Under the pieces are notes generated by a model that was not told where the DNA came from, made no database searches, and saw only the letters and a program-made list of their open reading frames with translations. Positions 995 through 18,940 of a DNA stretch of 26,474 nucleotides are shown piece after piece; the first letter of the stretch is position 1, and each line of letters opens with the position of its first letter. Origin of the DNA: a virus; IMG/VR virus record IMGVR_UViG_3300039159_000062, positions 1 through 26,474 of that record; one strand, given 5' to 3'. Position numbers and translations under genes: made by a program.

Positions 995-2056
995 TTAAAA
1001 AGCGTTGAAGGGCAAGCCGCCCTGTTGAATGGCCACGACATATCGGCGTTGGCCACCTCGTTGCACGACAGCGCCGCCAGCACGAACGCCGGGGGCGACT
1101 GACACATGCCGATCGGTCATGTTTTTGAAAGGCAACGCAGTGCAAAGGCCCCGCGTTGACCAGAAGTAGATTTGCTTGTCGTCCGCCGACCAGTGCTGGC
1201 CGGGCACCACGCCGTAGGGGGCGAGCGTCTCCAGCTTGGTGTTGTCGTAGGCGTAGATGCTCGAGGCGGTGCCGATCAGCAGCGCGTCGTCGGTGGGGGC
1301 CAGCATCAGGATTCGGCCGGGCACCAGCACCACGTCTTTGGCCAGATCGAACAGGTGAAAGCCCAGCGGCTGCGAGAACCACAGCGCGGTCTGGTCGGCT
1401 TCGGGGAAATACTGCGCGGCATAGATGCGGCCCTTCCAGGCCTGGATCACGTCGGCGCCGAAAGGCAGTGCGTCAAGGCCAGCGGTCATCAAGTCGCCGT
1501 GCTGGTCGTTGGTGAACACCGCGCTGGCGTCTTCGCCCGCCTCAGTCTGGAGTTCGCGCGTGAACTTCACCAGTGCTGCACCGGCAGGGGCTGGGCCAGT
1601 TGCACCGCTGCCAACGCCGGTCATGCGGCCGTCGGCCAGCCGGTAGGTGAAGTAGGTGCTGTCGTCGCCTGCGGGCGGTGAACCCCAGCGCCACACCAGA
1701 ACCTCGTTGTCAGGATTGATGATTCCGGCGTCGGTGCCGTTGTTGAAAAACACCTGGTCGTTGATCTCGGCCCAGTGCATCGGTGCGGCAGCCAAGCCGG
1801 TCTGGAGCGTCACCGCCGTGGCCGGGCCGGTCATGGCCTTGAGCGCACCGCCGTCAACCACGTACATGTGCGAGAAGTCGGATGTGCTGAACGCACTGGT
1901 GAACGCGCCGGGCAGCGCCCGGCTGTAGCCCTCGCGCTTGACGATGCCGCCAGTGTCGGTGATGTCGATGTTGTCGGCCTGATCCAGCCACCCAAGGCCC
2001 AGCCGCAGCTTGTCGCTGACGTTGTGCAGGCCGTTGAAGGACTTGATCGGTTTCAT
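995..2056 (-). CDS. Phage structural protein, possible beta-propeller / stabilisation-type tail protein
   Basis: A 353-residue protein beginning MKPIKSFNGLHNVSDKLR. It has an amino-terminal 'NGL.NV.D..RL' and 'DN.DIT..G...R.GY' pattern, followed by repeats built on Trp, Tyr and Gly (for example IYAAQYFP, LWFSQPL, IYAYDN, IYFWSTRG). These are typical of the beta-propeller-like proteins that phages encode near tail genes, including packaged-DNA-stabilisation-type proteins. The exact role is not provable here. The start is the ATG at 2056, which has no Shine-Dalgarno sequence but lies 7 nt after heptad element A. A candidate terminator of the preceding lysis operon lies just upstream, so this gene probably opens a new transcription unit with the two genes to its left. 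Confidence 0.75.
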   Translation of the reverse strand: MKPIKSFNGLHNVSDKLRLGLGWLDQADNIDITDTGGIVKREGYSRALPGAFTSAFSTSDFSHMYVVDGGALKAMTGPATAVTLQTGLAAAPMHWAEINDQVFFNNGTDAGIINPDNEVLVWRWGSPPAGDDSTYFTYRLADGRMTGVGSGATGPAPAGAALVKFTRELQTEAGEDASAVFTNDQHGDLMTAGLDALPFGADVIQAWKGRIYAAQYFPEADQTALWFSQPLGFHLFDLAKDVVLVPGRILMLAPTDDALLIGTASSIYAYDNTKLETLAPYGVVPGQHWSADDKQIYFWSTRGLCTALPFKNMTDRHVSVAPGVRAGGAVVQRGGQRRYVVAIQQGGLPFNAF

Positions 2057-2063
2057 CGCTTGG

Positions 2064-2084
2064 ATTCTAACTTAGAGCTTAGAG
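2064..2084 (-). promoter_or_regulatory. Heptad promoter-like element A
   Basis: On the minus strand this reads as three heptads: CTCTAAG, CTCTAAG, TTAGAAT. The final TAGAAT resembles a -10 box and ends 7 nt before the ATG of the 353-residue gene. That gene has no Shine-Dalgarno sequence, so a transcript would start at or next to the ATG. It is one of six copies in the window and lies just after the lysis cassette. Confidence 0.7.
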
Positions 2085-2092
2085 AAATAGGT

Positions 2093-2129
2093 GCCCAGGG
2101 AACTCGACTGGTTCATCTGCTCCCTGGGC
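2093..2129 (-). terminator. Candidate terminator after the lysis cassette
   Basis: A perfect 9-bp inverted repeat (GCCCAGGGA and TCCCTGGGC) has a 19-nt loop. On the minus strand it is followed by a broken U-tract (acctatttctct) that runs into heptad element A. Its position between Rz/Rz1 and the next module fits termination, but the loop is long and the U-tract imperfect. The rest of 2130-2198 shows nothing. Confidence 0.4.
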
Positions 2130-2198
2130 GGTGGGGGGTTGGATAGCGAGGTCCAATGGCAGCCCCGCACAACGACAGCACCCTCCACTGGCTTTGCG

Positions 2199-2723
2199 TC
2201 ATCGATTCAGTTTGTCGCGGGCGGTATCGAACTCGCGCTCGCAGGCACGCCCGGCAAGACCCCGGTCGTCAGCAATTCTTGCCAGATCAGTCGCTCGGTC
2301 GTCAATGCGTCCAAGCACGTCGGCCAACACGCCGATGGGGTCATCGGTTGGCGGGCGTAGCTCGGAAGCGCCGGGAGCTGCACAGACTTGACGGGCGCGG
2401 TTGGCAGCGGCTTGGGTGGCGCTGCGCAGCCCGGCAGCAGCAGCGCGAGCGCGAGTGTCAGCAGCAGCCACAGCGACGCTGAGAGCGGCAACTTCTTGGC
2501 CGTGTTTTTCGGTCGCATCATTCAGCTCCTGTTCGATCTGTCGGTTTTTCGCTTCCTGGTTCGCGCGGGCCGTCTGTGTCGCCAGGCGCTCCGCGTCCCA
2601 TTGCGCCTGGGTAGTCGCTATCCCTGATTGCTTGCCTTTGCTGTAGCCGTACCATGCAGACCCAGCAAGTGAGATGGCAATAGCTGTGAGGGCAACCAGG
2701 GGTTTCAGAATCGTCCATGTCAT
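2199..2723 (-). CDS. Rz: Inner-membrane spanin (Rz-like)
   Basis: A 174-residue protein with one amino-terminal membrane segment (about residues 7-27) followed by a long Gln/Glu/Ala-rich helical region (about 35-115) that should form a periplasmic coiled coil. This is the architecture of i-spanins, which join the outer-membrane lipoprotein Rz1 to fuse the two membranes in the last step of lysis. The start ATG at 2723 overlaps the stop of the holin-like gene (ATGA) and has a good AAGGAG site. The identification rests mainly on the nested lipoprotein gene and the adjacent endolysin. Two cysteines in the carboxy-terminal half could form disulfides. Confidence 0.85.
   Translation of the reverse strand: MTWTILKPLVALTAIAISLAGSAWYGYSKGKQSGIATTQAQWDAERLATQTARANQEAKNRQIEQELNDATEKHGQEVAALSVAVAAADTRARAAAAGLRSATQAAANRARQVCAAPGASELRPPTDDPIGVLADVLGRIDDRATDLARIADDRGLAGRACEREFDTARDKLNR
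2207..2521 (-). CDS. Rz1: Outer-membrane spanin lipoprotein (Rz1-like), nested in Rz
   Basis: A 104-residue protein encoded entirely within Rz in another reading frame. It has a basic start, a hydrophobic signal segment (about residues 11-30) and a lipobox LLPGC with the lipidated cysteine at residue 32, followed by a proline-rich stretch (AAPPKPLPTAP). This is the signature of o-spanins. After export and lipidation it would sit in the outer membrane and bind the Rz periplasmic domain. Two adjacent ATGs (2521 and 2518) are possible; AGGAG lies 4 nt before the first. At 104 residues it is longer than many Rz1 proteins, with a less characteristic carboxy-terminal half. Confidence 0.85.
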   Translation of the reverse strand: MMRPKNTAKKLPLSASLWLLLTLALALLLPGCAAPPKPLPTAPVKSVQLPALPSYARQPMTPSACWPTCLDALTTERLIWQELLTTGVLPGVPASASSIPPATN

Positions 2724-2929
2724 TGCGGCTCCTTGACTGCCACGTCATCCCAGGTCGCAAAGCCGATGTAGGCCGCAACCACCGCGCCAGCGAAAGCGTA
2801 AAACGCACCAGCCACCGCGCCAAGCTGCTCGGAGTCCGTGTAGAGCAACAGCAGCGGAAACGCCAGCCCGGCCAGCAGCGCCAGCCATGCCATGCGGCGG
2901 CGGTTTTTCCAGCGGTCTTTTTCGATCAT
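2720..2929 (-). CDS. Small two-span membrane protein, holin candidate
   Basis: A 69-residue protein starting MIEKDRWKNRRRM. It has a strongly basic amino terminus, a first membrane segment (about residues 13-30), a short acidic loop (TDSEQ) and a second segment (about 37-57), then a charged tail. Size, two-span layout and place directly after the endolysin fit a class II-type holin, which would form the lesions that release endolysin. The start at 2929 overlaps the endolysin stop (ATGA). No sequence motif is diagnostic, and the other small membrane protein at 3399-3635 is an alternative holin or an antiholin partner. Confidence 0.65.
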   Translation of the reverse strand: MIEKDRWKNRRRMAWLALLAGLAFPLLLLYTDSEQLGAVAGAFYAFAGAVVAAYIGFATWDDVAVKEPQ

Positions 2930-3402
2930 GCGTCCATCAGGTCGGCAATGCGCCGAGCCCACCCGCGAGAAAAACTAGGCCAGTGGCTCAGGCTGGTCAT
3001 GAAGCGCAACCGCTGTGCCAGCATCCGTTTCGCCAGCGCGTGCGGGTCGGCCTGCCGGGCGCTGGCAATCGTGAGCGGCCCGATCTTGCCGTCATCGGCA
3101 ATGCCCAGCGCTCGCTGTAGCCATCGGGCCGACTGCCCGACGCCGGAGTTCACGGCAGCGTCAAACACCGGGTAACGCACCGCTGGCGGCAACTCGTCGG
3201 CCTGCACCGCGTCCCAATATTTCAGCCGATAGATTTTCTTTGCCCGGTCTTGCCCGAGGTCGCGCATTGAGCCGGTGTAACCAGCCTCACGCGCCACGGC
3301 GGCAGTCACGCCCCACATCGTCTCGGCTCCGGGGTCAGCCGGGTGAAAGCTGTACCCGCCTTCGTGACCAAGCAGCTTTGTGAATGCTTCATCGAATGTC
3401 AT
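2926..3402 (-). CDS. GH108-family endolysin (muramidase)
   Basis: A 158-residue peptidoglycan hydrolase. The HEGGY motif at residues 13-17 supplies the catalytic glutamate (Glu14) of the glycoside hydrolase family 108 fold, followed by the usual 'PADPG..T.WGVT' strand. The carboxy-terminal half (about 85-150), with 'VNSGVGQSARWLQRALG' and 'DGKIGPLT', matches the peptidoglycan-binding type-3 region normally joined to GH108. Its length is normal for the family and there is no signal peptide, so release would depend on a holin. Its start overlaps the upstream small membrane gene (ATGA) and its stop overlaps the next, which shows tight translational coupling in the lysis cassette. Confidence 0.92.
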   Translation of the reverse strand: MTFDEAFTKLLGHEGGYSFHPADPGAETMWGVTAAVAREAGYTGSMRDLGQDRAKKIYRLKYWDAVQADELPPAVRYPVFDAAVNSGVGQSARWLQRALGIADDGKIGPLTIASARQADPHALAKRMLAQRLRFMTSLSHWPSFSRGWARRIADLMDA

Positions 3403-3635
3403 GGCTTGTCCGCTTTCTTTTCGATGGCATCCTGAATCTTGTCGAGCTTCGTGAAGAGCGCGTCAAACATCCGAGTCGCCTCTTCTTTGCGCATGTATTG
3501 CCCAGCCACCAAGACGTCTATCGCGGCGACCTTTGTTTCAAGGCTGCGCACCGCTTGCCACATGGTGTTTAAGAGCCATCCGCCGATGGCGCCCAAAAAC
3601 CCAGCGGCCATATTGAAAAGGTCTTGCGATTCCAT
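3399..3635 (-). CDS. Small single-span membrane protein of the lysis cassette
   Basis: A 78-residue protein starting MESQDLFNMAAGFLG. It has one glycine-rich membrane segment (about residues 7-24) and then a charged helical region (VRSLETKV..., about 28-75) that may be a coiled coil. It may be a holin, antiholin or holin-associated factor; the sequence does not decide. I chose the ATG at 3635: an AAAAGGA site lies 8 nt upstream and the codon overlaps the stop of the preceding gene (TAATG). A longer reading to 3719 would extend into that gene without a better ribosome site. The gene runs directly into the endolysin with a 4-nt overlap. Confidence 0.75.
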   Translation of the reverse strand: MESQDLFNMAAGFLGAIGGWLLNTMWQAVRSLETKVAAIDVLVAGQYMRKEEATRMFDALFTKLDKIQDAIEKKADKP

Positions 3636-4051
3636 TATTTTTTTCCTTTTGAAATCAAGGCCAGCAAGTCTTCGGGTGTGATGCGCTGCTTGGGCATCTC
3701 GCCGGTCAACAAAAACCACGTCAGCTCGTAGCAGTACAAGCGTTTGGAGTCGCGGGCGCTGTTGGGGATGACGAACGCGAACTGGCTGAAAATGTCGTAG
3801 GGCATGCCGAAGGCAAACCTAAAGCGGTCCCAGGCCAGCTCGTCGTCGCCACCGGGCACGTCGAACAAGTCCCAACCTTGGGGGATGAACGTCTCGTTAT
3901 GAACGCCCGCGGACAGGTTGGTGTGCAGCAGTTGGTCACCGATGACGATGCCGCTGTGCGGGTAGTGGGTGACAAGCCGGTAGGCCGTCAGCTCATGAAA
4001 TGCGCGTTTGGCGAAGCCTTTGGGCGGGGCGTGTTTGAGTGTGAGCTTCAT
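3635..4051 (-). CDS. Permuted papain-like (NlpC/P60-type) protein, candidate second lysis or virion hydrolase
   Basis: A 138-residue protein. The segment HSGIVIGDQLLHTN (His32 and following) and the later YDIFSQF...LYCYELTW (Cys107, Glu109) appear in the order His then Cys, as in circularly permuted NlpC/P60 proteins of the YiiX kind, where a '.CSEL.' motif carries the cysteine. This suggests a cysteine amidase or peptidase acting on cell wall or a thioester/amide bond, but the match is partial: Tyr stands where Ser is usual. It is the first gene after heptad element B, has no Shine-Dalgarno sequence, and overlaps the next lysis gene by one base. It could instead be a virion protein. Confidence 0.55.
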   Translation of the reverse strand: MKLTLKHAPPKGFAKRAFHELTAYRLVTHYPHSGIVIGDQLLHTNLSAGVHNETFIPQGWDLFDVPGGDDELAWDRFRFAFGMPYDIFSQFAFVIPNSARDSKRLYCYELTWFLLTGEMPKQRITPEDLLALISKGKK

Positions 4052-11022: not shown

Positions 11023-12144
11023 TTACTGGGCCACGTAGCAGCTGATGACGCCGAAGTCTTCGACGGCGTTGCCTTCGTAGATGTTGCCGAACTTGGGCTT
11101 CAGGAAGCCCAGGATCTTGCCGATGGCGATGGCCTGGGAGTTCTTGAAGTCGAACTCTTCCTCGTTCCACTCGGGGGCACCCAGGTCGGCCATGCCGAGC
11201 GCTTGCGCACCGCAGAACAGCACCTGGCAACCGTCCACCGTGCCGGAGGCGCCGTACTTGCCGGTGGCCACGCCAGAGGTGTTCGGGACGTGGCGGAACT
11301 CGTGCAGGTAGATGCCGTCGATCTTCACGCTGTCACCGGAGTACAGCTTGTCGTTGACGCTGGTGCTCTGGCTGTGGCGCAGGTTCAGGTTGTAGTCCGG
11401 GTCCTGCTTTAGCTTGGCCATGGCCTGCGGGGTCAAGAAGGCGTGGTACGTCTCCTGACCGCCTTCGCCACCGACGCCACGGATGTAGCGGTCCTTGGCA
11501 TAGGCCTTCAGCTGCACAAACATCTTCCAGCCGGGGAAGTCGGTGGCGGTCACAGCAGCGGAGGTGTTGCCACCGGTCTGGCTGGAGCGCAGCACGCCGG
11601 CGGTGGAGTCCCAGCGCGTCATGCGGCGGGTCGACGGGGCGCTGACGTCAGCGGCAAACTCGAGGTGGCGCAAGTCCGAACCAACGCGCGCCGCGCCGCT
11701 GGGCTTGAACTGGTAGCCGATGCCAGCCAGCGTCTGGAACGCCATCTGGTCGATACGGTCTGCCAGCCAGTAGCTCAGCACGTTCTTGGAGTTGTCGCGA
11801 AAGCTGATGATCGACTTCTGGTCGGCCATCTTGCCCTCGTGGCGGTTGGCGTGGCGCAGCTGGTCGATGCGGATGACCTGCTCAAACGTCTGCATGCCCT
11901 CCTCGTTGCCCACCAGGGTGCGGTCGCCGGCCACGCCGTCGCCCTGCAGGTCGGCCAGCAAGGTGATCACCGCGCGGGCGCCCTTTTCAGACGACTTCAA
12001 GGAGGTGATGTGCTGGATCATCGAGTTCGTGCCCGAACCCAAGAACTTGTTGATGAACGACTGGTTGCGTGCGTTCTTCCATAAATCCATGCTCCAAATG
12101 GTCTTTTGTTCATTTGTGAGCAGGCCAAAGTTGGTGAGTGCCAT
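11023..12144 (-). CDS. Major capsid protein, N4-gp56 type
   Basis: A 373-residue protein forming the head shell. The amino-terminal half carries the pattern typical of the N4-gp56 capsid family (for example DQKSIISFRDNSKNVLSYWL and 'DQMAFQTLAG'). I chose the ATG at 12144 (MALTNFGLLTN) because a GAAGGAG site lies 7 nt upstream; an alternative in-frame start at 12198 would add a basic segment with no ribosome site. Heptad element C lies 113 nt upstream, so the transcript would have a short leader with a proper ribosome site, unlike the leaderless genes in this window. It follows the scaffold in the usual head-gene order but with two genes, the gp49-type gene and the homing endonuclease, between them. 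Confidence 0.88.
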   Translation of the reverse strand: MALTNFGLLTNEQKTIWSMDLWKNARNQSFINKFLGSGTNSMIQHITSLKSSEKGARAVITLLADLQGDGVAGDRTLVGNEEGMQTFEQVIRIDQLRHANRHEGKMADQKSIISFRDNSKNVLSYWLADRIDQMAFQTLAGIGYQFKPSGAARVGSDLRHLEFAADVSAPSTRRMTRWDSTAGVLRSSQTGGNTSAAVTATDFPGWKMFVQLKAYAKDRYIRGVGGEGGQETYHAFLTPQAMAKLKQDPDYNLNLRHSQSTSVNDKLYSGDSVKIDGIYLHEFRHVPNTSGVATGKYGASGTVDGCQVLFCGAQALGMADLGAPEWNEEEFDFKNSQAIAIGKILGFLKPKFGNIYEGNAVEDFGVISCYVAQ

Positions 12145-12257
12145 ACGGCTCTCCTTCATAAAAACAGATGTACAAATTGGCTTTCGCCGCCTTGCCATGT
12201 GTCGTCATGACCAACGAAGGGTGGGTAATGTCTATCGGGTTACCAGTCCGTAGTGCG

Positions 12258-12278
12258 ATTCTAACTTGGATCTTAGAC
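12258..12278 (-). promoter_or_regulatory. Heptad promoter-like element C
   Basis: The minus strand reads GTCTAAG, ATCCAAG, TTAGAAT. It overlaps the last codons of the homing endonuclease gene and lies 113 nt before the major capsid ATG, which has its own ribosome site. This is the likely capsid promoter. The middle heptad differs from the consensus and is closest to element D. Confidence 0.65.
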
Positions 12279-12770
12279 GGATGCGCGCGCCACAGGCTGA
12301 AAAGTGTGGTATCGCGCCTTGGCTACTGCCTGCGCGTCTTTGGCGGCTGTAAGGTCGGCAAAATAACCGACATGGTGGTGCGTCCCGCGCACTGTCACCC
12401 GTACACGCCAGCGGTCTCCCACCCGGCACACCCCGGGCACGCCGCTCGAGTTGTCTTTGCGCACGCTCATGTTCTGGTTGTTCTCAGCCCGGTCTGCCGC
12501 CCGTAGATTGGTCCAGACGTTGCTCCGTCTGTTCCCGTCGCGGTGGTCGATGTCAGCAGGCGGGAATGCACCGGTCATGTAGAGCCAAGCCAAGCGATGG
12601 AGCATGTAGTTCTTGCCTTGAACCATCGCTGACTGGTACCCAGAAATATGTGCGGACCCGACTGACCCGCCGGATTTACGTCCTCTGCCATCCGTGCCCG
12701 GAAGGCGTGTAAACACCCCAGTCTCGGGGTCGTAAGACATCAGGCTCTTCAGTTCGGCTTGGGTGATCAT
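12273..12770 (-). CDS. HNH homing endonuclease with AP2-like DNA-binding domain
   Basis: A 165-residue free-standing mobile endonuclease. The HNH core runs about residues 50-95: HRLAW (His58), then DIDHRDGNRRSN (Asp75-His76 through Asn84) and the supporting 'NLRAADRAENNQN'. Residues about 106-155 are an AP2-like domain (GVPGVCRVGDRWRVRVTV, HVGYFADLTAAKDAQ), the DNA-binding partner usual in this family. It would cut an allele lacking it and be copied by repair. It lies between the scaffold and capsid genes and has its own element D and a GAAGGA site. It is not needed for growth, so I treat it as a mobile guest. Confidence 0.9.
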   Translation of the reverse strand: MITQAELKSLMSYDPETGVFTRLPGTDGRGRKSGGSVGSAHISGYQSAMVQGKNYMLHRLAWLYMTGAFPPADIDHRDGNRRSNVWTNLRAADRAENNQNMSVRKDNSSGVPGVCRVGDRWRVRVTVRGTHHHVGYFADLTAAKDAQAVAKARYHTFQPVARASV

Positions 12771-16600: not shown

Positions 16601-18940
16601 TTAAGCCGCCATGAATGACTTGGAACCACCGGTTTTGAGCTTGTCGCGCCAGGAAGCGGGCTGTTTGTGCTCGGCGCGGCGCGGCGCGGCGCTGTTGAGC
16701 GACATCTGGACCATCCAACTCAGGCTGTCGACCTGGTCGTCGTGCGCACCGGCTGGAAACCGGAGCATTTCGGTGCGGCAAACGTCGTACCAGTCAGCGC
16801 TGGTGGCGAAACTGACCGCCCCCTGCTGCATCCGGCCCTGCAGCGGCCGCGCCCGCGCCAGCTTGTCGCTGATGGGCTTCAAAGTGACCGTGGAGGGGTA
16901 GAAACTGCGTTCTCTCATTCGTTTCTTGAGTAGAGATTCGATTGCACGGAAGATTTGACCGTCCTCGAAGCCGATCTGCATCGCAGGACTGTACCATTTC
17001 TTGGCCAGGTTCAAGATCGCTTCAATGATGAACAGGCTGTCGCCCGATTTGAACCGCACAATGTCGGCAATGTGCAGCTGGTCGTTCTCGTCTTGCAGCC
17101 CGACGGTGCCCACGGTGTAGTCGTTGGTCTTTTTTTCGCTGATGGCGAAGTCCCAGGCGATCAGCACGTTGCAGCGGTGGGTCGGCGGCAGGTCCTGGCG
17201 GCGAAAGTGCTCTTTCAGGAAGTAGCTGCCGTCATCGGGCACCGGGTTCTGCTGGTACAGGGCCGACCAGAAACGCGTGCTGATCGTGCGCTTGATCTGG
17301 TTGAGCTTTTGGATGTCGTATCGCGCCGGGTGCAGCGCTTCGCCTTTGAGGCGCAGCAGTTTGCCGTTTGCGGGCTCGGAATCGACGATCAGGTCCGTCT
17401 CAAAGTCGAGGTATTCGTCGGTCTCCGCAATCGCAGGGTATTTGATGACAGTGAACTGGTCGGCTTCGGGGTCTGCGGCCATCGCAACTTGAAGACGACC
17501 GGCGAGGTCGTCATCGTGCCACCAGGTATTGTGGCTGACCAGGCCGTTGGCGATGAAGTTCTCTGTCCGGTCGATCTGGACGTCAAACACTTCTTCAACG
17601 CCAGTTGACTCGATGCTGACAACTCGGTCAGCTGTGAATTCGGATGTATTCGGCCACGGCGAGCGCGACACGTTCAGTTTTTGTATGCCCGACAGCAGTA
17701 TTGCAGCCGTTGCATAGCAATCCACGAACTTTGCCGGTTTCGTGGCAGTGGTCGACGCAAAGTCCTCCACGCCAGTGGGAAGGCGTGCGCTCGGGCGCGT
17801 CACCACAGACAGCGCATTTGCCGCCCTGCTCAGCCAAGAGCCGATCATGCGCTTCGCGCGTGAGGCCGTACCGGTGTTTGAGGTGCCGCTCTCGCTGGGA
17901 CGTTGGGTTGACGGAGGGCGCCCGGTATCCGTCAGCCCACTTTTGCTTACTGTAGTGGGAGGCACACAGCCCCCGGCAGTTGACGGGCAGCTCGCAGCCT
18001 TCAGCGGCGCAGACGACGCCTTTCCACTTCCCCCACTGCCCTTCAAGGCTACGATTTTGTGGTCCGTAGTTAGGTCGTTCGTTCTTACCCATCTGAGCCC
18101 TTCGGTGGTGGAGACCAGGAACGGGTGTCGCCCGTTCGCTCGCACTATTTTACCGGAACTCGTCGTGATTGTAAACACATTATCACGACCATTGCTCTTC
18201 CATGCAGCGACCCTGGAGGCCGTGAGCTCCCCGTTCTCGTAGGTGGCCACCACGTCCCCCGCACGAACCTCGTCTAAGCGCTTCTCAGACCCATCCGGTA
18301 GGCGCACAGGGGTGTCCCCCACCATGCACTGAACGATGAGGACACCACCGCCTGGAGCCAGGCGCGTGTAGGCGGTGGAGTCATACCATTCCTTGAGTTT
18401 TTCGCGGTTGTCGGCGCTGTCGGCCTCTTCCGCGTTTTTGATTGGGTCGTCGATGGTCAGTATGTGTGCGCCCTTGCCGGTAATACCGCCGCCGACGCCA
18501 GCGGCCACGTAGCCGCCGCGCTTGCCCTGGACGCCCCACTCTTCAGCGCCCTGGAAATCGGGGTTCAGGCGGGTCTCAAACACCGGGTGGTAGGCCGGGT
18601 CCTCCAGGACCTCCTTCACCTTGCGGCTGAAGGACATGGCCAGGCCCACGTTGTACGAGCAGGCGATCACCTCGTGGTCGGGTGCGCGGCCCAGGTGCCA
18701 GGCAGGGAACATCCGGGAGCCCAGCTCCGACTTTCCGTGCCGCGGCGGCATCAGGATCATCAGGCGGGGGCTCTTACCCGCAATCACGTCGTCGCTGAAC
18801 TTCTCCAGGCGCCTGCAGATGTCCTCATGGACCCACCCGGCCAGGTAGCGCGGGTTGATGCGCTGGGTGAAGGGCAGCAGGCGGCGGCGCGACAGCAGCC
18901 GGGAGGCCAGCTCGATCTCAGCGGCGGTGGGCTTGGCCAT
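16601..18940 (-). CDS. terL: Large terminase subunit precursor, interrupted by an intein
   Basis: The packaging motor. The 779-residue precursor holds a 512-residue terminase split after residue 204 by a 267-residue intein. The ATPase domain has Walker A MPPRHGKSE (Lys70) and Walker B ILTIDDP (Asp164-Asp165). After the intein the chain resumes with the conserved TWWHDDDLAGRL (coupling motif), then the nuclease domain: IAWDF (Asp597), GFEDGQ (Asp660), AHDDQVDS (Asp734, 735 and 738). I start at the ATG at 18940; a GTG three bases upstream is possible. It overlaps the small-subunit stop (TGATG). Protein splicing is needed for activity, because the insertion falls in a core motif. Confidence 0.95.
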   Translation of the reverse strand: MAKPTAAEIELASRLLSRRRLLPFTQRINPRYLAGWVHEDICRRLEKFSDDVIAGKSPRLMILMPPRHGKSELGSRMFPAWHLGRAPDHEVIACSYNVGLAMSFSRKVKEVLEDPAYHPVFETRLNPDFQGAEEWGVQGKRGGYVAAGVGGGITGKGAHILTIDDPIKNAEEADSADNREKLKEWYDSTAYTRLAPGGGVLIVQCMVGDTPVRLPDGSEKRLDEVRAGDVVATYENGELTASRVAAWKSNGRDNVFTITTSSGKIVRANGRHPFLVSTTEGLRWVRTNDLTTDHKIVALKGSGGSGKASSAPLKAASCPSTAGGCVPPTTVSKSGLTDTGRPPSTQRPSESGTSNTGTASRAKRMIGSWLSRAANALSVVTRPSARLPTGVEDFASTTATKPAKFVDCYATAAILLSGIQKLNVSRSPWPNTSEFTADRVVSIESTGVEEVFDVQIDRTENFIANGLVSHNTWWHDDDLAGRLQVAMAADPEADQFTVIKYPAIAETDEYLDFETDLIVDSEPANGKLLRLKGEALHPARYDIQKLNQIKRTISTRFWSALYQQNPVPDDGSYFLKEHFRRQDLPPTHRCNVLIAWDFAISEKKTNDYTVGTVGLQDENDQLHIADIVRFKSGDSLFIIEAILNLAKKWYSPAMQIGFEDGQIFRAIESLLKKRMRERSFYPSTVTLKPISDKLARARPLQGRMQQGAVSFATSADWYDVCRTEMLRFPAGAHDDQVDSLSWMVQMSLNSAAPRRAEHKQPASWRDKLKTGGSKSFMAA
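17528..18328 (-). other. Intein in terL (267 residues), mini-intein with foreign-frame linker
   Basis: The intein spans residues 205-471 of the precursor. It begins with Cys205 (CMVGDTPVRLPDGSEKRLDE, block A), has a block B-like segment GRHPFLV (His272), and ends with a block F/G region: ADRVVSIESTGVEEVFDVQ, then NFIANGLVSHN (His470-Asn471). The +1 residue is Thr. These are the residues for class 1 splicing. The 130 or so residues between blocks B and F, about 300-435, are Ser/Thr/Arg-rich and not protein-like; their DNA codes for the HNH protein in another frame. The insertion point is the conserved 'VLIVQ/TWW' motif of terminases, a known hotspot type for inteins. Confidence 0.95.
17628..18092 (-). 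CDS. Endonuclease VII-like HNH protein nested out of frame in the terL intein
   Basis: A 154-residue protein in a different frame from terL. A cysteine-rich lead (Cys28, Cys33, Cys39/43, His46) looks like a zinc site. The core is CAVCGD (Cys93, Cys96), then 'LCVDHCHETGKVRGLLCNGCN' split as Asp114-His115 to Asn131, the signature of the recombination endonuclease VII (His-Me finger) family. It would cut intein-free terL and drive homing. Its ATG at 18092 has a GAAGGG site 5 nt upstream and lies inside the block B coding region; its stop is just before block F. It is therefore probably translated from the terL message as a separate protein. Confidence 0.9.
   Translation of the reverse strand: MGKNERPNYGPQNRSLEGQWGKWKGVVCAAEGCELPVNCRGLCASHYSKQKWADGYRAPSVNPTSQRERHLKHRYGLTREAHDRLLAEQGGKCAVCGDAPERTPSHWRGGLCVDHCHETGKVRGLLCNGCNTAVGHTKTERVALAVAEYIRIHS

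Follow-up and report, generated by a model that had tools for sequence, protein, structure and literature searches.

The textbook intein is a splicing domain with a fused endonuclease domain. Among the inteins of mycobacteriophage large terminases (TerL), those inserted at the C-motif were classed as TerL6-f, and the Chandler gp6 member splices readily (Kelley et al. 2016, PMC5050341). For TerL6-f, the main text mentions neither a homing endonuclease (HEN) nor an overlapping frame; cleavage tests covered TerL1-b and TerL1-c alone, in which a HEN could be identified. Out-of-frame HNH insertions have been described in methylases, not inteins, as the ShiLan domain and the Pacc40 insertion (Arsenault et al. 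2025, PMC11855218). On reading-frame overlap in actinophages, that paper cites a preprint on actinobacteriophage inteins whose title includes "non-canonical architecture" (Gosselin et al. 2025, bioRxiv 10.1101/2025.01.02.630785). A C-terminal EndoVII motif (CxxC, DHxH, CxxCN) is found in the homing endonuclease F-CphI (PMC6083498), and in fractured genes a split intein is reportedly served by a separate endonuclease ORF between its halves (Dassa et al. 2009).

The locus described here lies in a single IMG/VR viral record of 26,474 bases, the whole of which was analyzed and is referred to as the window. It is likely to represent a mobile intein whose homing endonuclease is encoded in a second frame of the same DNA, a view in which splicing of the window intein, translation of the nuclease and cleavage are inferred. 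The intein belongs to the same family as Chandler TerL6-f and occupies the same TerL C-motif site (35-45% identity to TerL6-f), and the Chandler intein (L117) carries the same out-of-frame HNH. As with ShiLan and Pacc40, the HNH is out of the host frame, the host frame is open, and the disjunct distribution suggests homing; the ShiLan HNH, in the third frame, has the same phase as the window HNH. The locus therefore meets the ShiLan-type criterion of an out-of-frame endonuclease in an open host frame but not that of absence of a splicing element. In ShiLan and Pacc40 there is no splicing domain and the insert stays in the methylase, no Shine-Dalgarno (SD) sequence was found, and few phages are involved. 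F-CphI shares the EndoVII motif with the window HNH but is free-standing next to an intron-bearing psbA, with neither an intein nor an overlapping frame. Fractured genes split the host gene in two, whereas the window TerL is one continuous open ORF, so that the split-intein criterion fails.

The literature searched for an intein with an out-of-frame endonuclease in TerL gave the ShiLan paper only; the full text of Gosselin et al. (2025) was outside that search. The preprint could include Gordonia and Mycobacterium TerL cases and could have priority there, but an actinophage survey would miss most of the relatives reported here, which comprise unknown-host contigs, Pseudomonadota, Chloroflexota and a cyanophage. 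The mobile intein as such is known, and ShiLan is a partial precedent, as the preprint may also prove to be.

An HNH gene nested out of frame in a terminase intein

The nested architecture, set out in Table 1, is directly visible in the sequence. Pfam matched Terminase_6N in the TerL ORF at 1.2e-11, and the intein is inserted between Q and T of the TerL motif VLIVQ/TWWHDDDL (the TerL6-f or C-motif site).

Table 1. Positions of the terminase features in the window and of the second-family inteins in other loci
Feature	Position	Strand	Description
TerS	19590-18940	(-)	Pfam Terminase_2
TerL ORF	18940-16601	(-)	779 residues, open throughout, intein included
P22-type portal	16573-14357	(-)	
N-extein of TerL	18329..18940	(-)	204 residues, ending ...GGGVLIVQ; Terminase_6N ATPase part
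Intein	17528..18328	(-)	267 codons, C1 to N267; starts CMVGDTPV, ends FIANGLVSHN; Pfam Intein_splicing 1.2e-17
N-terminal splicing domain	18038..18328	(-)	Intein residues 1-97, blocks A and B
Intein-frame linker	17645..18037	(-)	Intein residues 98-228, predicted disordered; coding sense is that of the HNH frame
C-terminal splicing domain	17528..17644	(-)	Intein residues 229-267, blocks F and G, ending ...FIANGLVSHN; NCBIfam intein_Cterm
C-extein of TerL	16601..17527	(-)	TWWHDDDL at start; RNase H-like nuclease part, through stop
Nested out-of-frame EndoVII/HNH nuclease	17628..18092	(-)	154 residues plus TGA; PF02945 (Endonuclease_7) 1.1e-18
HNH ATG start	18090..18092	(-)	TG also serves as the first two letters of the Trp codon conserved in block B (18091-18089)
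SD-like GAAGGG	18098..18103	(-)	5 nt before ATG; also codes intein Glu-Gly
Second-family inteins	L011:2116-3105, L428:801-1811, L429:547-1701, L431:2001-3107, L432:339-1391		

The splicing domain and both intein ends were identified by Pfam and NCBIfam. The sequence marks of a class 1 intein are present, namely Cys1, a block-B His, and C-terminal His-Asn followed by Thr at +1; C1, N65, H68 and N267 are invariant in 53 relatives, and H266 is conserved in at least 90%. In the AlphaFold model of the intein frame, pLDDT is mostly above 90 for residues 1-97, confidence is also high for residues 229-267, and pLDDT is below 50 at residues 98-106 and 108-223. The folded part has the DnaB mini-intein fold, its best Foldseek matches being the Ssp and Npu DnaB inteins (E about 1e-9 to 1e-8), which satisfies the Hint fold criterion. 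According to the model, the intein is predicted to fold only outside the HNH overlap. From sequence and model we infer a complete class-1-type intein; its splicing is likewise inferred, and has been demonstrated by others for the relative Chandler TerL6-f.

The nested HNH frame is -1 relative to the intein frame (phase +2). The encoded protein has an N-terminal Cys/His zinc-finger-like region and a C-terminal catalytic domain with the layout CxxC...DHCH...LLCNxCN. In a PDB search its sequence profile matched T4 EndoVII at 9.3e-9, and also Hpy99I. The structure model has a pLDDT of 86, and Foldseek gave weak matches to Hpy99I and T4 EndoVII (best E 0.008); the sequence profile is thus stronger evidence than the fold search for EndoVII identity. 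The active-site set of T4 EndoVII (D40, H41, H43, N62 and four Cys; PMC6083498) corresponds in the HNH to D114, H115, H117, N128 and C93, C96, C127, C130. Across about 60 members D114, H115 and the four Cys are invariant and H117 and N128 are conserved in at least 90%, and the EndoVII/F-CphI family motif of two CxxC pairs, DHxH and an active-site Asn is present.

A sequence-only reading of the window had placed the intein at 18328-17528 and the HNH at 18092-17628, preceded by its GAAGGG site, and these coordinates held. Its description of the intein-frame translation between the blocks as not protein-like held in part: the first ~18 HNH codons overlie truly conserved intein sequence (residues 79-97), and only residues 98-228 are not protein-like. 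Elsewhere in the window a free-standing HNH_3 endonuclease gene (12273-12770, (-)) adjoins the major capsid gene (11023-12198) and is probably another homing endonuclease.

Conservation of the overlap among relatives

Two separate tblastn searches, one with the intein-frame protein and one with the HNH protein, hit the same terL genes, which belong to Mycobacterium, Mycolicibacterium and Gordonia phages. Loci that have both intein ends as well as the HNH were collected from bacterial genomes, viral contigs and phage records, first 54 and later 141 of them; every one is in phase +2 and has no stop in the TerL frame. The viral scan gave at least 430 relatives. The shared arrangement, consisting of the same phase, an open TerL frame and an ATG or GTG over the block-B Trp codon, is found in 154 of 155 distinct intein DNA sequences. 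A canonical in-frame homing endonuclease between blocks B and F is therefore not what these inteins carry: some 150 different relatives, from phages of a wide range of bacteria, have retained the same overlap, with one DNA stretch read in two ways. Named hosts or source bins in the genome set include Gallionellaceae, Endozoicomonas, Sulfuritalea, Nonomuraea, Mycolicibacterium, Geobacteraceae, Anaerolineae and other Chloroflexi, and Eremiobacterota, with the proviso that such bins may hold stray viral contigs.

The sequence-only reading had proposed checking the HNH frame in related terminases, and had named as its refutation a sequencing or assembly error in which an ordinary intein, its HNH in frame, is masked by two indels. 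The effect of a single indel is illustrated by L354, the sole exception, in which the HNH is fused in frame to the N part of the intein and is followed by a stop, with the C part in another frame; a single indel is the likely cause in L354 itself. The error explanation is all but excluded, because 154 of the 155 distinct sequences, which come from bacterial genomes, phage isolates and many samples, have the out-of-frame phase in common; in addition, the HNH has its own conserved start and stop. The proposed refutation thus failed.

The loci were collected with family queries, and rare in-frame or nuclease-free forms could have escaped. The only search blind to the insert was that with the TerL C-extein, in which 5 of 5 true intein inserts were of the out-of-frame-HNH kind; an apparent sixth insert, L299, was rejected as a misplaced alignment. 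No in-frame HNH ancestor was found among the 155 distinct sequences, L354 being in frame at its N side only and then broken. Distant genome matches (L136-L187) were rejected as family members; those with a readable insert are in-frame inteins that lack this HNH, and similarity is weak except in the C-terminal block.

In six intein-bearing phage records (L116-L119, L121 and L122) the nuclease is unannotated, and searches of annotated frames probably miss such endonucleases; the Vincenzo record (L120) has the note "homing endonuclease in intein" and nothing more. Two size classes occur in the intein family, of about 265 and 300-310 codons (e.g., L001 and L015, respectively). The longer inteins have ~40 codons more near the HNH N-terminus, which form another Cys-rich finger, and both frames stay open. 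At 77609-78409 of the Streptomyces anulatus plasmid record NZ_CP108377.1, which is likely to be a phage-plasmid, a terminase gene contains an intein of the same kind (42% identity).

Start of the HNH and selection on the two frames

An ATG or GTG stands at the block-B Trp position in 155/155 distinct inteins, and the N of the start NTGG coincides with the third position of the intein codon before it. Among 89 dereplicated members, this position holds A in 70, G in 19, and C or T in none, compared with 28, 46, 9 and 5 expected for A, G, C and T from codon usage. Family-wide, anti-SD pairing upstream of the start is -6.5 kcal/mol versus -5.4 kcal/mol for synonymous versions of the intein residues (p 2e-8). 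A stop in the HNH frame lies directly before the start in 8 of the 89 members, the frame is open for no more than 5 codons upstream in 39, and in none of the 89 is it open back to the intein start. The start-base bias, the SD-like signal and the upstream stops together make internal initiation the best reading, and it is probably how the HNH is made; this is inferred from sequence, no proteomic or ribosome-profiling data having been found. The earlier suggestion that endonuclease level is set by internal initiation is supported to this extent, translation itself being inferred.

Alternatively, programmed -1 frameshifting out of the TerL/intein frame could yield the HNH as a fusion. In favor of this, every member has its HNH in the -1 frame relative to the intein, and the catalytic domain would still be retained if the shift took place after the start codon. 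Arguments to the contrary are the conserved ATG/GTG, the SD-like signal above synonymous expectation, the short or absent open frame upstream of the start, and the opposite phase of a second intein family described below. A stop directly before the start makes entry by upstream frameshift impossible, and upstream -1 frameshifting was rejected for those eight members; entry after the start codon remains a possibility that sequence does not exclude. Overall we regard frameshifting as very improbable compared with internal initiation.

For a stop test, each HNH was recoded synonymously, with codons sampled according to TerL usage at the same locus. The TerL frame of the recoded window HNH was stop-free in 0.8% of trials. 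Across 36 dereplicated members, 0 intein-frame stops were seen versus 109 expected, whereas the third frame of the same members had 427 versus 380 expected and thus shows no avoidance. In the linker core of 87 members there were 0 intein-frame stops versus 235 expected. Free-standing EndoVII genes show no avoidance in the equivalent frame (216 stops seen versus 177 expected), and EndoVII relatives outside the intein have 252 stops in that frame (67 loci, including 2 truncated nested copies without stops). Because the members are related and not independent, the joint probability of the stop test is too small and overstates the case; comparison with free genes and the third frame nevertheless makes stop avoidance clear. 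The observation made from the window alone, that the TerL frame is open through the overlap, therefore held and is beyond chance. The obvious reason for selection on this frame is that TerL must be made.

Per-frame selection, another check that had been proposed, was compared in 24 close pairs. Over the shared DNA, mean pN/pS is 0.25 for the HNH frame versus 1.52 for the intein frame; the N block of the intein, which does not overlap the HNH, gives 0.25. Variation peaks at the third codon position of the HNH, which is the second position of the intein, and together these results indicate that the linker sequence follows the HNH. Compared with synonymous recoding, Cys is depleted in the linkers (0.023 versus 0.032, p 1e-8), hydrophobic residues are fewer and small flexible residues more frequent; free HNH genes lack such a bias. 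The bias would fit selection against residues that disturb splicing, although this is tentative and codon-usage differences between genes may contribute. The main part of the claim that the linker is a by-product of overlapping coding thus held, with the qualification that the linker is not wholly passive or neutral, since it avoids stops and is biased in residue composition. Dual coding, with selection in both frames, is very likely. The family is a large natural collection of overlapping genes for which the functions of both frames are known, and questions about dual coding can be tested directly in it.

The HNH might instead be a relic, kept only for the sake of an open linker and no longer a working endonuclease. 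Consistent with this, the HNH is broken and the intein frame intact in L019 and L132. However, a relic would be expected to drift, and both the HNH-frame pN/pS and the conservation of the catalytic residues count against a relic, which we consider very unlikely. The reverse of the L019 and L132 condition occurs in no member, as expected if TerL is essential and a working endonuclease decays after fixation. The defects in L019, L132 and L354 are either natural decay or assembly errors.

Probable homing, origin and a second intein family

Exact empty sites, with no extra base, occur in 72 TerL loci. In a 132-row tree of TerL, at least 7 changes of intein presence or absence are required by the starred branches alone; the tree includes the L299 row, mislabelled as filled through the alignment artefact, which can lower the count slightly. 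Among the nearest TerL relatives of the window on this tree, filled and empty sites are mixed. The isolate contigs L001 (intein) and L280 (empty) differ by exactly the 804-base intein, with 60-nt flanks that are 93% identical on both sides. The exact empty sites and the patchy distribution are likely to reflect homing. This is an inference, no cleavage data having been found, and site-specific cleavage of an intein-free target by the HNH rests on these indirect signs only.

A different possibility is that the HNH serves the phage, for example in packaging, as do the HNH proteins adjacent to some terminases. Such neighbors can help with cos cleavage, as discussed for HK97 (PMC10448857), and EndoVII itself is a resolvase. 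The HNH, however, follows the patchy intein, and close relatives without both have an intact TerL; a needed factor would not be lost so often, and a packaging role is therefore most unlikely.

For the homing reading we propose the following mechanism. Reading in the TerL frame would yield a precursor with a ~136-residue Hint splicing domain and a ~130-residue disordered loop in place of the nuclease domain, and the Hint domain would excise itself and join the TerL exteins. Ribosomes would also start internally, at the ATG or GTG over the block-B Trp codon, to give a separate EndoVII/HNH nuclease. The HNH would cut intein-free terL at the insertion site, and repair would copy the intein in. The DNA would then be under two demands, namely function of the HNH protein and an open, harmless TerL frame. 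Splicing and endonuclease functions would share DNA but not protein, so that their doses are separable and the splicing domain carries only a flexible loop. For mixed-phage use or therapy, terL would be marked as a homing target.

The second intein family comprises members in L011, Synechococcus phage S-EIV1 (L428), Gordonia phage Clown (L429), L431 and L432 (Table 1), the last two added by a viral scan with the Clown intein. In L011 both kinds of intein are present in one terL, the second lying upstream in the Walker B region (N/C.IDDP). In all five members the out-of-frame HNH is in phase +1 and is not homologous to that of the first family; it is of the PF01844/PF13392 type and has treble-clef fingers. 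In the three members tested, the TerL frame is stop-free versus 16.8, 4.9 and 11.8 expected stops. Two viral scans with a second-family intein and its HNH returned almost only the query contig. The sequence-only reading had left open whether the arrangement arose by invasion of a free HNH gene or by a fusion that slipped frame, and this is still undecided, with no in-frame ancestor found. Since the second family has an unrelated HNH, and the HNH has its own ORF in both families, invasion is the better bet, but it is not shown. A bolder reading, which we think likely, is that inteins have repeatedly come to carry a homing endonuclease by nesting it out of frame, with at least two origins in terminase inteins (unrelated HNHs, different sites, opposite phases); this would account for phage inteins that spread yet appear to be nuclease-free.

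A ShiLan-like case is seen in L052, where an EndoVII HNH (2893-3306) lies out of frame, in the phase of the window HNH, inside an open DEAD-helicase-like ORF (1742-4003) without an intein. The search for an uninterrupted homologue of this helicase ORF found none, giving a single weak phage relative that stops before the HNH. The TerL of Corynebacterium phage Stickynote contains a mini-intein of ~134 residues without an insert (L124:2001-2402), and a separate, annotated HNH endonuclease gene (L124:1288-1704) is located just upstream of terL.
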